Positions 38,954-48,597 of a stretch of DNA of 49,275 nt are shown here, piece after piece. Origin of the DNA: Candidatus Peribacteria bacterium RIFCSPLOWO2_12_FULL_55_15 (GTDB lineage Bacteria; Patescibacteriota; Gracilibacteria; Peribacterales; Peribacteraceae); NCBI GenBank assembly GCA_001789045.1, contig MFYG01000001.1, positions 1-49,275 on the forward strand, in the 5' to 3' direction. How positions within the stretch are numbered: the stretch's first letter is position 1; every line of letters begins with the position of its first letter. Position numbers and translations under genes: made by a program. The notes under the pieces were generated by a model. The model was not told the origin of the DNA. It ran no database searches and saw only the letters and a program-made list of their open reading frames with translations.

Positions 38954-39305
38954 GACCGGCCGCCTCCATCAGGCGATAACGCACTTGTCTCGCACAATCT
39001 TGGTCAGTAAGAAGGTACGAGTAATGCATATCAACAATACCATTGAGAACGGCGATACGACGCTCATATTCACCCATATCGTACGGGCGGCGCGGGTTGT
39101 GTTTGCGATCTTCCTCTAACTCTCTATCCCACGCAGCGAGAATCTCCTCCGTAAGTTCCGGCGTAAGGAGCTTCCCGACAGGATCGTGCACGATCCGATG
39201 GAAGGCAGCACGAACACACGCAGTAACCCGCTCCGGAAGCCTTTGCCACCATGGACAAGGACTTTCGTTGGATGAACTGGGAATTTCAGACATTAAGTAT
39301 ATCAT
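38937..39305 (-). CDS. unknown protein downstream of the 2-oxoacid oxidoreductase
   Basis: A 122-residue soluble protein, MIYLMSEIPSSSN at the start, then mostly helical (LPERVTACVRAAFHRIVHD, PELTEEILAAWDRELEED, MEAAGL). Family unknown. Its ATG overlaps the stop of the beta subunit gene (ATGA), so it is the last gene of the flavodoxin-oxidoreductase operon. Confidence 0.65.
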   Translation of the reverse strand: MIYLMSEIPSSSNESPCPWWQRLPERVTACVRAAFHRIVHDPVGKLLTPELTEEILAAWDRELEEDRKHNPRRPYDMGEYERRIAVLNGIVDMHYSYLLTDQDCARQVRYRLMEAAGLIHYT

Positions 39306-40198
39306 ACCATCCTCTTCATAAACCTGCAAACATCAATTTTCCCAACCTCCTGAACGAGCGTTGTCTCCTCCCCAATCCGCGGCATCAGACGATCGTAGAA
39401 ATTCTGTATATCGGTACGTTGATAGAGAACCCCACAGGCAATGCGCTTCTGTGTATCTATTGCAAGAGTACGGGCCTTCACAAAATGACTGGGGTCGTGC
39501 TTGCCAAGACTCACATCGTAACAACGTTCCAGCAAATACTCGTGCGTTGCGAAGTGATTGTATGTCGGGCACGCCTGGAGAACATCGACTAACGCAAAAC
39601 CATGCGCCTGGTGTTTGATTGCCTCTATGAACACCTTCGTCATATGCGGAATGTCCCCACTGAACGTGCGCGCGACGAATGTTGGCTCCAGTGAAAAGAT
39701 AAAATCCATGGAATTGAGTGTGTGCTCCGGAATCCCATTCGGAGAGGCGGTCATCGGTTGCCCCTGCCAGGTCACCGCACTCGCCTGCCCAGTCGTGAGA
39801 CCGTAGTTCCCGTTATTGTGGAGAATGAACGTCAGGGGGTAGTTACTACGAAGCGCATGCACGAGGTGACCAACCCCCTCGGAGAACGTCGCTCCGTCGC
39901 CGCCGAAAGCGAGCACCGGCACACGCATGTTCGCGAGCTTCGCACCCACAGCAAAGGGGATCACGCGCCCATGCAACCCATGGAACCGGTACCCAAGGAG
40001 CTTGTCGCTCATGTTCCCATGACACCCAACGTCATAACAGAGGAGAACTTGCCACGGAGCAATCCCAAGTTCCGTGAGTGCGCGCTTCACCGCAGTCCAG
40101 ATCCCGTAATCCCCGCACCCATCACACCATGTGCACTGATTCGCACAGGAATACTGCTTCAATACCTTTATACCTGCTGCATCCAAGGGGATATTCAT
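39302..40198 (-). CDS. 2-oxoacid:ferredoxin/flavodoxin oxidoreductase, beta subunit
   Basis: A 298-residue thiamine-diphosphate-binding subunit of the KorB/PorB family. WCDGCGDYGIW lies at the N-terminus, CYDVGCHGNMSD next, and the ThDP/Mg motif is GGDGATFSEGVGHLVHALRSN with NNGNYGLTTGQAS. It oxidatively decarboxylates a 2-oxoacid to acyl-CoA and passes electrons on. The ATG overlaps the stop of the alpha subunit (ATGA). Which oxoacid is used cannot be told. Confidence 0.9.
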   Translation of the reverse strand: MNIPLDAAGIKVLKQYSCANQCTWCDGCGDYGIWTAVKRALTELGIAPWQVLLCYDVGCHGNMSDKLLGYRFHGLHGRVIPFAVGAKLANMRVPVLAFGGDGATFSEGVGHLVHALRSNYPLTFILHNNGNYGLTTGQASAVTWQGQPMTASPNGIPEHTLNSMDFIFSLEPTFVARTFSGDIPHMTKVFIEAIKHQAHGFALVDVLQACPTYNHFATHEYLLERCYDVSLGKHDPSHFVKARTLAIDTQKRIACGVLYQRTDIQNFYDRLMPRIGEETTLVQEVGKIDVCRFMKRMV

Positions 40199-42024
40199 GG
40201 GGATGAAAGATGAAAAATGAAAGATGAAAGCTTCTCCGCTAATTCATCCACAAAGAACGGCCTCCCATCGTACTTCAGAATCTTGTGCGGAATATCGATG
40301 CCGCACTGCATCTTCAGGAGCATCCCAAGCTGCCCCTGGTAATTCTGCTCAATGAGCACTACCTTCTTTACCTTCTTCACAAGCTTTTCAAGACGCTCGA
40401 TCTTGAGCGGCCAAAGGTAAGTGTAATGCAAGTAGCCAATTGCAGGATTTCGGACTTCGGACTTCGGACTTCGGACCAATAATGAAATAGCATCAAGAAT
40501 AACACCCTTATTGCTTCCCCAGGATACAATAAGAGTACCTACAGTCGTGTCGCCCTTAGACGAGCTCAGGGTGACACTCCTATCTTTGCTTACGATGTAC
40601 AACTCCGGTTCCGGCAATGTCTTCCGTATCGCTTCTATTTTTCGCATGCGTTTCTCCATCTGCATGCGCGCATTCGGAGCGGATTCATCGACGGACCCGT
40701 CGGCGGCATGCTCATCGCCCTGCGCGCAAAACGTCGCCGCTTCCGCGCCCGGAAGCCATCGCGGTGAAACGCCGTCGGGGGTCGTGGGATCGTACCGATC
40801 CGTGCTTTGAAGTTTCCGGAGTTCCGCGGGACGGACGACGAGCCGCCCACGCTCGATCGTCGCCGTCTTATGATCGAAAGGAGCCTGCGTGAAGAGCGCT
40901 TCGGCAAGCTGCTTGTCCGTGAGGACGATAACCGGCGTCTGCCACTCTTCCGCAAGATTGAAAGCGGTAGGCATGAGAGAGAAACAATCATGCGCATCGC
41001 TCACGGCAAGGACGATCCGCGAGAATTCTCCATGCGCGCCGGTAGCGGCGAGGAGAAGATCGCCCTGCGCCGTCCATGTGGGGAGCCCCGTCCCCGGCCC
41101 CGGCCGCTGCGCGACGATGAAGACGGATGGATTTTCGATGATGGCATTGAGCGACACCGTCTCCGTCATGAGATCGAACCCGCCGCCGGAAGTCGCGGTC
41201 ACCGCGCGCGTCCCCATGAACATCGCCCCGCTCATCATCTGCGCGGCGGTGATTTCATCCTCCGCCTGCTTCACGAGCATGCCAGTTGCGTTCTGACAGG
41301 CAGCAATGAACGAGAGGAGCGGCGAACTCGGCGTCATAGGATACCCGGCGTACAGCCGGCATCCGGCATGGATGAGTCCAAGACCCATCGCCTGGCTTCC
41401 AGTGACGAGGAGGTGATCTTTCCAGCGTGCGCTGGAGCTTGAAAGCTTGATTGTCAGGTGATCAGAATGGGACGTTGCAAATGCAAAGCCCTCGACAACG
41501 CAACGGAAATTGAGCATGAGAAGTTCCCTCCCCTTGTGCCCAAATTGCTCCCGTACAAGCGCTTGTAGCTCCGATTCCTTCCGACCAAGGAGTGCCCACA
41601 CCACACTCGTAATAAGGACATTGCCGAGGATCGGTTTTGCTTCGAGTTTTTTGAGAATCATCTCATTCGGAAGATAGAGGACACGCACATGACGACGATC
41701 GAGCAACTTCTGCACACTGGCAGCAAACGACCACTGCGGTGTTTGGTGGAGAATGATTCCTCCCCGTTTTACTTCATGTGCATTCTTCCCAAGACCGAGA
41801 TGATTGAAACAGATAAGAATATCAACCTGTGCCTCCGCACTCTCGATCTGCTCGCCACTGATATCAAGTTGGTAACTCGAGTGTCCACCCTTAATGATCG
41901 ACATGTACTCCCGATAACCGAAGACACAGTATCCGGCGCGCTTCAACCCTTTTGCACACATCTCCCCCACAGAGTTGACCCCCTGTCCTTGTGCGCCGGT
42001 GATTTTGATGGAAACACGATTCAT
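40195..42024 (-). CDS. 2-oxoacid:acceptor oxidoreductase, fused gamma-alpha subunit
   Basis: A 609-residue fusion: gamma domain at 1-190 (ITGAQGQGVNSVGEM, IIKGGHSSYQLDIS) and alpha domain from about 205 (GSQAMGLGLIHAGCRLYAGYPMTPSS, KQAEDEITAAQMM, GPGTGLPTWTAQGDLLL). This is the KorA-type organisation. The far C-terminal part carries repeat-derived peptides: SVTLSSSKGDTT from a palindrome, LVRSPKSEVRN from a heptamer array, and the last residues SSFIFHLSSP from another array at the stop codon. It is preceded by a flavodoxin gene, a likely electron partner. Confidence 0.9.
   Translation of the reverse strand: MNRVSIKITGAQGQGVNSVGEMCAKGLKRAGYCVFGYREYMSIIKGGHSSYQLDISGEQIESAEAQVDILICFNHLGLGKNAHEVKRGGIILHQTPQWSFAASVQKLLDRRHVRVLYLPNEMILKKLEAKPILGNVLITSVVWALLGRKESELQALVREQFGHKGRELLMLNFRCVVEGFAFATSHSDHLTIKLSSSSARWKDHLLVTGSQAMGLGLIHAGCRLYAGYPMTPSSPLLSFIAACQNATGMLVKQAEDEITAAQMMSGAMFMGTRAVTATSGGGFDLMTETVSLNAIIENPSVFIVAQRPGPGTGLPTWTAQGDLLLAATGAHGEFSRIVLAVSDAHDCFSLMPTAFNLAEEWQTPVIVLTDKQLAEALFTQAPFDHKTATIERGRLVVRPAELRKLQSTDRYDPTTPDGVSPRWLPGAEAATFCAQGDEHAADGSVDESAPNARMQMEKRMRKIEAIRKTLPEPELYIVSKDRSVTLSSSKGDTTVGTLIVSWGSNKGVILDAISLLVRSPKSEVRNPAIGYLHYTYLWPLKIERLEKLVKKVKKVVLIEQNYQGQLGMLLKMQCGIDIPHKILKYDGRPFFVDELAEKLSSFIFHLSSP
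40203..40230. repeat. heptamer array, 4 x ATGAAAG at the end of the oxidoreductase gene
   Basis: Units ATGAAAG, ATGAAAA, ATGAAAG, ATGAAAG. The coding strand reads CTTTCAT units (LSSFIFH heptapeptide in any frame), which forms the protein's C-terminus. Confidence 0.85.
40449..40476. repeat. heptamer array, 4 x TTCGGAC in the oxidoreductase gene
   Basis: Four exact tandem copies. The coding strand reads GTCCGAA units, giving VRSPKSE in any frame, in a loop of the C-terminal domain. Confidence 0.9.
40547..40577. repeat. palindromic repeat in the oxidoreductase gene
   Basis: Arms GTGTCGCCCT (40547-40556) and AGGGTGACAC (40568-40577), one mismatch, around TAGACGAGCTC. Same family as in pcrA; read in frame. 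Confidence 0.8.
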
Positions 42025-47008: not shown

Positions 47009-48101
47009 ATGGAGGAACTCCTCAAAAAGCTTCGGGAACTCCAGAGTGCCATACACACGGGGAAGGACTCTCTTTGAGGCAAGAAACTACCCGCAAAGAA
47101 TCGCCGACCTGGAGGCCAAAAGCCGGGACCCCCGCATATGGGCCGATCAAAAAGCCGCCAACGCGCTCTTTGAGGAGCTCCGCGGCTTGAAAAAACTGTG
47201 GGAACCGCTCGCGCGCATTGCGGCCGACGCCGAAAATCTCATCGAACTTTCGGCATCAGCGGAGCCCGGCGATCTCCCGAGCCTGCAATCGGAAACAGGA
47301 AGGATAGAAAAAACATGGGAGGGTATCGAGCCGCAACTGTACCTTGGCGGTGAGTTCGATCTCCGCAACTGCTACCTCTCCATAAGCGGCGGCGCGGGAG
47401 GAACCGAAGCGCAGGATTGGGCGGCTATGCTGCTCCGCATGGAACTGCGCTACTGCGAACGGCAAGGCTGGAAAACCACGCTTCTCGAAAAAACCGACGG
47501 CGCGGAGGCCGGCATCAAGTCGGCCACAATCTTCGTGGAGGGCGATCCCGCCTACGGATACCTAAAATGCGAGAAGGGTACCCATCGCCTCGTGCGCCTC
47601 TCCCCCTTCAACGCAAAGAATCTCCGCCAGACGAGCTTCGCGCTCGTCGAAGTCCTCCCGGAAATCGGCGACGGCGGGGAGATCGCCATCGACCCCAAAG
47701 AACTCCGGATCGACACGTTCCGCAGCGGGGGGGCGGGCGGCCAGCACGTGAATAAGACCGAAAGCGCGGTGCGCATCACCCATGTCCCGACGGGGACGGT
47801 CGTCGGCTGCCAAAGCGAACGCAGCCAAATCCAAAACCGCGAGCACGCGATGCAGATGCTGAGGAGCAAGCTCCTCGAGAAAAAACGCACGGAAGACCAG
47901 GAGAAGAAAACGGAACTCAAAGGGGCTTCCGCAAGCGCGGACTTCGGGCAGCAAATCCGCAGCTACGTCCTTCACCCCTACCAGATGGTGAAGGATATCC
48001 GGACGAACGTCGAAACAAGCGACACGCAGGGCGTCCTCGACGGCGATCTGCAACCATTCATTGATGCGGAATTGAAACGAATGGCAAAGGAAAAACGGTA
48101 A
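47009..48101 (+). CDS. prfB: peptide chain release factor 2, programmed +1 frameshift
   Basis: The zero frame from ATG 47009 gives 22 residues (MEELLKKLRELQSAIHTGKD, then SL) and meets TGA at 47075-47077 preceded by CTT. A +1 shift at CTT-TGA joins it to the long frame continuing EARNYPQRIADLEAKSRDP, for a 363-residue RF2. A purine-rich GGGGAAGGA a few bases before CTT is the expected stimulatory Shine-Dalgarno-like element. Domain marks: RLSPF (stop-codon specificity for RF2) and SGGAGGQHVNKTESAVR with the catalytic GGQ. RF2 reads UAA and UGA, so UGA is stop here. Confidence 0.95.
47072..47077 (+). promoter_or_regulatory. programmed +1 frameshift site CTT TGA
   Basis: Slow decoding of the in-frame UGA when RF2 is scarce lets the ribosome slip to the +1 frame, the classical autoregulation of prfB. 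The internal GGGGAAGGA lies at 47058-47066. Confidence 0.92.
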
Positions 48102-48105
48102 GATT

Positions 48106-48170
48106 TCCCTCTCCCCGCGGGAGAGGGGAGACCGAAAAAGCACCCTCTTCAGAGAAGAGGGGCCTTCCGG
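48106..48170. repeat. tandem palindromes after prfB
   Basis: CCCTCTCCCCGCGGGAGAGGG (in parts) near 48108-48128 is followed by CCCTCTTCAGAGAAGAGGG at about 48143-48161. Either hairpin could end transcription of prfB or of the convergent histone gene. Same family as the insert in gatB. Confidence 0.75.
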
Positions 48171-48185
48171 AAACGAGGAGTATGT

Positions 48186-48356
48186 TTACAGATCGCGCTT
48201 CTGGACGGTGCCGCGGCCGTTCTCCTTACAACGCCAGCAGGCCCGCTTCACCTTGTGCGCGACAGTCTCATCGAGACCGTCGCAGAAATCTCCCGCGCAG
48301 CGCAGACCTTCAGCGTTGACGAGTTCCTTGACCTTCGACGCAACAGTGTAACTCAT
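48186..48356 (-). CDS. bacterial histone-fold protein (Bd0055-like)
   Basis: A 56-residue protein, MSYTVASKVKELVNAEGLRC at the start and RACWRCKENGRGTVQKRDL at the end. The layout is a minimal histone fold: short helix 1 (SKVKELVN), long central helix (DFCDGLDETVAHKVKRACWRCKENG), then the RGTVQKRDL strand-loop equivalent to the histone R-T pair and last helix. This matches the short bacterial histones typified by Bdellovibrio Bd0055, dimeric DNA-binding proteins. Four cysteines are unusual. It stands alone after prfB in convergent orientation. Confidence 0.8.
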   Translation of the reverse strand: MSYTVASKVKELVNAEGLRCAGDFCDGLDETVAHKVKRACWRCKENGRGTVQKRDL

Positions 48357-48597
48357 AGAAAAGGGGTAAAAGGGATAAAACAGGGGCATTCTAGGGACAT
48401 CCTGCGCACAATCGCAAGAGATTCCGCCTCTTTCGCAGAAAAACGGCAAAATAGAGCCATTCCAAGGGAATTAGCCGATAGACTTATTACTTCGATTCTG
48501 CCTCTCCAGTGCGTTTCTGGCACATATTCCTCACAGCACAGTAGTACTTTGACAAAAATAGTGCTATAATATCTCTGCAAACATCAACAACACTCTC
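48357..48597. other. intergenic region between histone gene and small peptide gene
   Basis: About 240 bases. It must hold the promoters of two divergent genes; only the one toward 48598 is clear. Inside are no convincing coding frames. Confidence 0.3.
48562..48570 (+). promoter_or_regulatory. extended -10 promoter (TGCTATAAT)
   Basis: TGCTATAAT is an extended -10 (TGnTATAAT). A TTGACA occurs at 48549-48554 but only 10 nt upstream, too close for a standard -35. The start near 48577 leaves a leader of about 20 nt before the ATG at 48598. Confidence 0.6.

Follow-up and report, generated by a model that had tools for sequence, protein, structure and literature searches.

A Four-Cysteine Bacterial Histone of Probable FtF Type Encoded Next to prfB

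The Histone Locus

The window, that is, the whole stretch of 49,275 nucleotides that was analysed, contains at positions 48186-48356 an ORF for a 56-residue protein, MSYTVASKVKELVNAEGLRCAGDFCDGLDETVAHKVKRACWRCKENGRGTVQKRDL. The ORF had been recognized in an earlier note made from the sequence alone, which did not state that it is read from the minus strand. The gene and its surroundings are composed of the following features.

48356..48186, minus strand: histone gene, 56 codons plus stop, ATG at 48356
48388..48393, minus strand: -10 box TAGAAT, ending 31 nt before the histone ATG
48412..48417, minus strand: -35-like box TTGCGA, with an 18-nt spacer to TAGAAT
48143..48161, minus strand: terminator-like hairpin followed by a T run, between the histone gene and prfB
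47009..48101, plus strand: prfB (release factor 2) with PCRF and RF-1 domains, convergent with and downstream of the histone gene

A longer frame of 87 amino acids with a TTG start exists for the same ORF; translation probably begins at the ATG at 48356, since the relatives begin there and the -10 box sits inside the longer frame. The gene is present as a single copy in the 0.9-Mb genome. In comparison to the closest relative, 13, 7, and 28 differences are found at the first, second, and third codon positions, respectively, the codon changes being synonymous in 19 cases and non-synonymous in 15. The promoter layout (TTG, a spacer of 16-18 nt and TAnAAT, located 28-35 nt 5′ of the ATG) recurs at 62 of 69 histone loci, one of the 70 loci (L009) having been omitted as too short, while mononucleotide shuffles of the same upstream stretches give a mean of 0.05 and a maximum of 2 out of 69. 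By its homologues, its codon pattern and this common promoter layout, the ORF is more than a chance frame. Terminator-like hairpins number two in the region, with 1.0 expected.

Among the 70 histone loci, prfB lies convergent downstream at 46 and upstream at six; it was not found at the other 18 within the available 0.1-3 kb. The prfB gene of the window contains, at 47009-47080 on the plus strand, an in-frame TGA after CTT of the release factor 2 type (translated as MEELLKKLRELQSAIHTGKDSL up to the stop), and the main frame resumes at +1, so that a programmed frameshift is likely. Elsewhere in the window, an IS200-like transposase is encoded near the contig end (48753-49100, minus strand; Y1_Tnp, 1.9e-18), which is perhaps cut short, as the match spans 69 of 121 profile positions, and a two-subunit 2-oxoacid:ferredoxin oxidoreductase (POR, POR_N, TPP_enzyme_C, PFO_beta_C) is found at 39302-42024 on the minus strand.

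Histone Identity

In a phmmer search against solved chains, the window protein matched the histone HLp of Leptospira perolatii with 5.3e-5, HTkC of Thermococcus kodakarensis with 0.012, and, weakly, HBb (Bd0055) of Bdellovibrio bacteriovorus with 0.16-0.18. A profile of relatives comprising 59 rows matched the same three proteins with 6.9e-16 (61.7 bits), 7.6e-13, and 7e-11, respectively. The AF2 model of the window protein (pLDDT 92.2) has helices at residues 6-15, 22-45, and 53-55, and its top match in Foldseek is HLp (TM 0.96, 0.7 A). With VIA, the model gave Z 9.2 for HLp, 8.7-8.8 for HBb, 8.3 for HTkC and about 6-6.2 for nucleosomal archaeal histones. The window protein alone matched nothing in Pfam and nothing useful in NCBIfam; among the 59 relatives, 34 match PF00808 at E<=1.

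At the level of sequence and of the predicted fold, the 56-residue protein is thus confirmed as a bacterial histone. This agrees with the earlier note, which had described a minimal, single-fold bacterial histone and had named structure prediction and an HMM search as checks; the two motifs it had pointed out are likewise in place, SKVKELV at residues 7-13 and the NGRxTVxxRDL end as NGRGTVQKRDL at residues 46-56.

Three other identities were discarded. A match to NrfH reached 15.5 bits, far under the family cut-off of 134.2; a ZZ histone would carry an N-terminal ZZ-type zinc finger domain, which the 56-residue protein lacks; and the pseudodimeric DUF1931 histones contain two folds per chain, in contrast to the single fold found here.

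Distribution and Relatives

Of the 353 genomes of the class, 70 gave homologues in a search with the window protein. Within the window's family, 68 of 74 genomes encode the histone (55 of the 57 of good quality), while outside the family, in the same class, a match occurs in two of 279. The six family genomes lacking a match remain so with the profile; two of them (G200, G211) are near-complete, from which it follows that the gene is not indispensable in all family members. HU (PF00216) is encoded by 67 of the 74 family genomes, including that of the window. In a sample of the phylum, 28 of 379 genomes gave a match, 17 of which belong to the window's family or class and are all among the matches of the class search. 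Another class contributes matches in nine of 13 genomes, and all nine proteins carry the pattern R...N.R.T....D. The nearest named record is Candidatus Peregrinibacteria bacterium CG10_big_fil_rev_8_21_14_0_10_49_16.

For residue counts, a table of 66 single-fold proteins was used, from which four two-fold proteins are excluded; one row (L003) was dropped for being on the same contig as another (L004). The two-fold proteins are fused histone doublets of 119-121 amino acids, occurring in four of the 70 genomes (L048, 2989-3351, minus strand; L057; L071; L072, 3001-3357, plus strand), and in each the same single-fold type is present twice. For one of them (L072), the AF2 model has a pLDDT of 92 and the first Foldseek match is the doublet histone of Methanopyrus kandleri. 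The three family doublets have lost the equivalent of R42 from the first half. Furthermore, a 64-amino acid histone that has one cysteine and bears the signature of face-to-face (FtF) histones is encoded on a contig classed as viral (L120, 1965-2159, plus strand; IMGVR_UViG_3300009506_000024).

No description of histones of Peregrinibacteria, Patescibacteria or Peribacter was found in the main texts of the histone papers searched or among the paper titles listed, although supplementary tables may include members; further histone papers, used in excerpt, are PMC10627809, PMC11317129, and PMC13260811.

Assignment to the FtF Type

The excerpts of Schwab et al. (PMC11390915) used here give R41, N45, R47, T49, and D54 of D4GZE0 as the residues of the FtF tetramer and describe the bacterial dimers as lacking the FtF residues R48 and N52 (profile numbering). 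In the window protein the FtF signature is present as R42, N46, R48, T50, and D55, and these five residues are identical in all 66 single-fold relatives. The modelled histone fold has a short α2 and a single-turn α3, as in the FtF α3 type.

The closest solved counterpart is HLp, whose tetramer is held by R49, S52, N53, R55, T61, and F63 and which wraps about 60 bp of DNA, according to the sections of Hu et al. 2025 (PMC12701072) drawn upon. Residues 1-56 of the model align without gaps to residues 8-63 of HLp (9qt0), and R42, N46, and R48 of the window protein correspond to R49, N53, and R55 of HLp. From the nine DNA contacts of HLp given in those sections, six are kept in the window protein (A6, S7, K8, K10, G22, and T50), while three are altered (K21 to N14, T27 to C20, and T56 to G49).

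The earlier note had assigned the protein to the Bd0055 type, and a dimeric, DNA-bending histone of this kind would share the monomer fold and the significant profile match to HBb; it is, however, very improbable, because HLp outscores HBb by sequence, profile and fold, and because the equivalents of R42 and N46, whose lack separates bacterial dimers from the FtF type in the excerpts of PMC11390915, are both present in the window protein and invariant among its relatives, while the profile-search alignment of HBb, in keeping with the parts of PMC11390915 and PMC12701072 used, has S and D at these places. As far as sequence can tell, the window protein would work like HLp rather than like Bd0055.

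The preferred reading, to which we assign a probability of roughly 0.8, is therefore that of an FtF α3 bacterial histone, predicted to form a tetramer that wraps about 60 bp of DNA beside HU. Tetramer formation, DNA wrapping and abundance are expectations taken over from HLp. In the proposed mechanism, handshake dimers would join via R42, N46, and R48 into a ring-like tetramer, which would contact DNA irrespective of its sequence through A6-S7-K8, K10, loop L1 (C20, G22) and loop L2 (T50) and would wrap it to the extent known from HLp; the histone would act as a nucleoid protein next to HU. C20 would be located where T27 of HLp touches DNA and C43 beside the tetramer interface, where a redox or metal effect is conjectured. 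If this assignment is correct, DNA-wrapping FtF histones would extend to a Peregrinibacteria-type family of small genomes, in which the gene is nearly universal beside HU.

Cysteine Residues

The four cysteines are encoded as follows.

48297..48299, minus strand: C20 codon; loop L1, aligned to HLp T27, a DNA contact in the sections of PMC12701072 used
48282..48284, minus strand: C25 codon; first turns of α2
48237..48239, minus strand: C40 codon; aligned to HLp L47, dimer core
48228..48230, minus strand: C43 codon; adjoins the tetramer residue R42

The earlier note had counted four cysteines and placed C20 and C25 correctly, while the residues it gave as C41 and C44 are C40 and C43, one position lower. 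Four cysteines in a 56-residue protein are uncommon without being extreme (P 0.013 given the 1.6% background of the window, which includes some doubtful long ORFs). The same note's view that they set the protein apart from the known histones holds against the aligned stretches of the solved chains, with one cysteine in HBb and none in HLp and HTkC, but not within the family, where a six-cysteine lineage is found.

Among the 66 single-fold proteins, cysteine occurs at position 20 in 13, at 25 in nine, at 40 in 11, at 43 in nine, and at 54 in 33. C25 and C43 occur in the same nine proteins, always together with C20; these are the window protein and eight six-cysteine proteins (C20, 25, 32, 43, 54, and 56) from three genera. 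The latter (L006, L007, L009, L010, L012, L014, L030, and L036) are 54 amino acids long, with cysteine making up 11% of the residues. The two nearest relatives of the window protein (74% and 63% identical) have C40 as their sole cysteine. The cysteine pattern is therefore real and lineage-specific, not family-wide. It provides a natural series of cysteine counts from zero to six in otherwise similar histones of 54-57 residues, in which the effects of thiols on assembly can be compared.

On balance, the cysteines are somewhat better explained by neutral drift, in a lineage with a small genome and at sites where small residues are tolerated. In the family, position 40 is occupied by C, A, or V, position 43 by C or A, and position 20 by C, S, T, or A, and the number and place of cysteines vary widely among genera. 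Drift is less readily reconciled with the recurrence of the same three positions in a separate lineage and with position 43 being either A (57 of 66) or cysteine (nine of 66) only.

The recurrence of C20, C25, and C43 in one other lineage suggests, from the sequence comparison, a common thiol or metal function. An intersubunit metal site, or a disulfide that locks the histone or senses its redox state, is nevertheless unlikely. The strict co-occurrence of C25 and C43 with C20 speaks for it, as does the location of C20, which would lie at a subunit junction: in HLp, L1 and L2 of different subunits pair with each other (sections of PMC12701072), and the AF2 model of a two-fold relative has DSSP strands at L1 (19-20) and L2 (50-51) in the first fold and at equivalent sites in the second. 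Against it stand the nearest relatives, with C40 only. Moreover, C20 occurs without C25 in four of the 66 proteins, and three of the other class's nine histones (L121, L122, L123) have a lone C43 (RCKGNKR), so that the set is not strictly coupled.

The history of the cysteines bears on the same question. In the rpoB tree, built from 40 of the 63 genomes with a match to the rpoB domain, the window groups with its two nearest relatives, apart from the six-cysteine group, and two changes each are implied for C25 and C43, in favour of a functional site. In AU tests, from which two genomes with partial rpoB (G153, G173) were left out, a group of the window and the six-cysteine lineage alone was rejected (p 2e-8) and the wider group weakly so (p 0.028). 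The histone tree, unlike that of rpoB, joins the two cysteine lineages within the wider groups, even without the cysteine columns (97/89; G148 left out for its long branch), which makes shared ancestry or transfer possible and weakens the case for a functional site; without these columns the rpoB arrangement is weakly rejected (p 0.032), and a group of the window protein with the six-cysteine proteins to the exclusion of the window's nearest relatives gives p 0.05. With two origins only, no correlation test reaches significance (sign test for the correlated gain of the cysteine pair on the rpoB tree, p 0.5). The window and both of its nearest relatives have retained the convergent position to prfB, while prfB adjoins none of the eight six-cysteine loci (flanks of 1.5-3 kb); this favours descent at an unchanged locus in the window's lineage. 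Repeated gain, losses from an ancestral set, and transfer may each account for the pattern; the window's genus is represented by one genome only.

Doubtful to a still higher degree is the more specific proposal of a thiol or metal centre made up of C20, C25, and C43 between L1 and the α2 end plus L2 of the other subunit, which would have been gained in two lineages and would make the protein a redox- or metal-gated FtF chromatin protein. If true, DNA wrapping or tetramer stability would depend on the state of this centre; more generally, if the cysteines bind metal or form bonds, bacterial chromatin would here be under redox or metal control.

Comparison with Known Histones

The closest known system is the bacterial FtF histone HLp (PDB 9qt0-9qt2). 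The folds are alike over 56 of 56 residues, ungapped, at 0.7 A, and both proteins have the RD clamp (R48-D55), the tetramer residues R42, N46, and R48, and the SK motif of α1. With 36% identity, the window protein differs from HLp in lacking the N-terminal tail, in three of the DNA contacts (C20, N14, and G49), and in its four cysteines, as against none in the aligned stretch of HLp. Moreover, HU is also encoded in the window genome, whereas the hosts of HLp are devoid of it, according to the sections of PMC12701072 used.

The archaeal FtF histone HTkC (PDB 9f2c) has a like fold, R at the place of R42 and the RxT motif; it differs by E at the place of N46 and by an L1 that is two residues longer. 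The bacterial dimer HBb (PDB 8cmp, 8fvx) has the monomer fold, the short α3, the SK motif and the RD clamp in common with the window protein, but bends DNA as a dimer, is without equivalents of R42 and N46, and has an L1 longer by one residue; its single cysteine aligns with none of the four. The ZZ histones are likewise cysteine-rich and have a fold like that of the bacterial dimers; their cysteines, as far as described in the excerpts of PMC11390915, belong to a distinct zinc finger domain at the N-terminus, which the window protein does not have.
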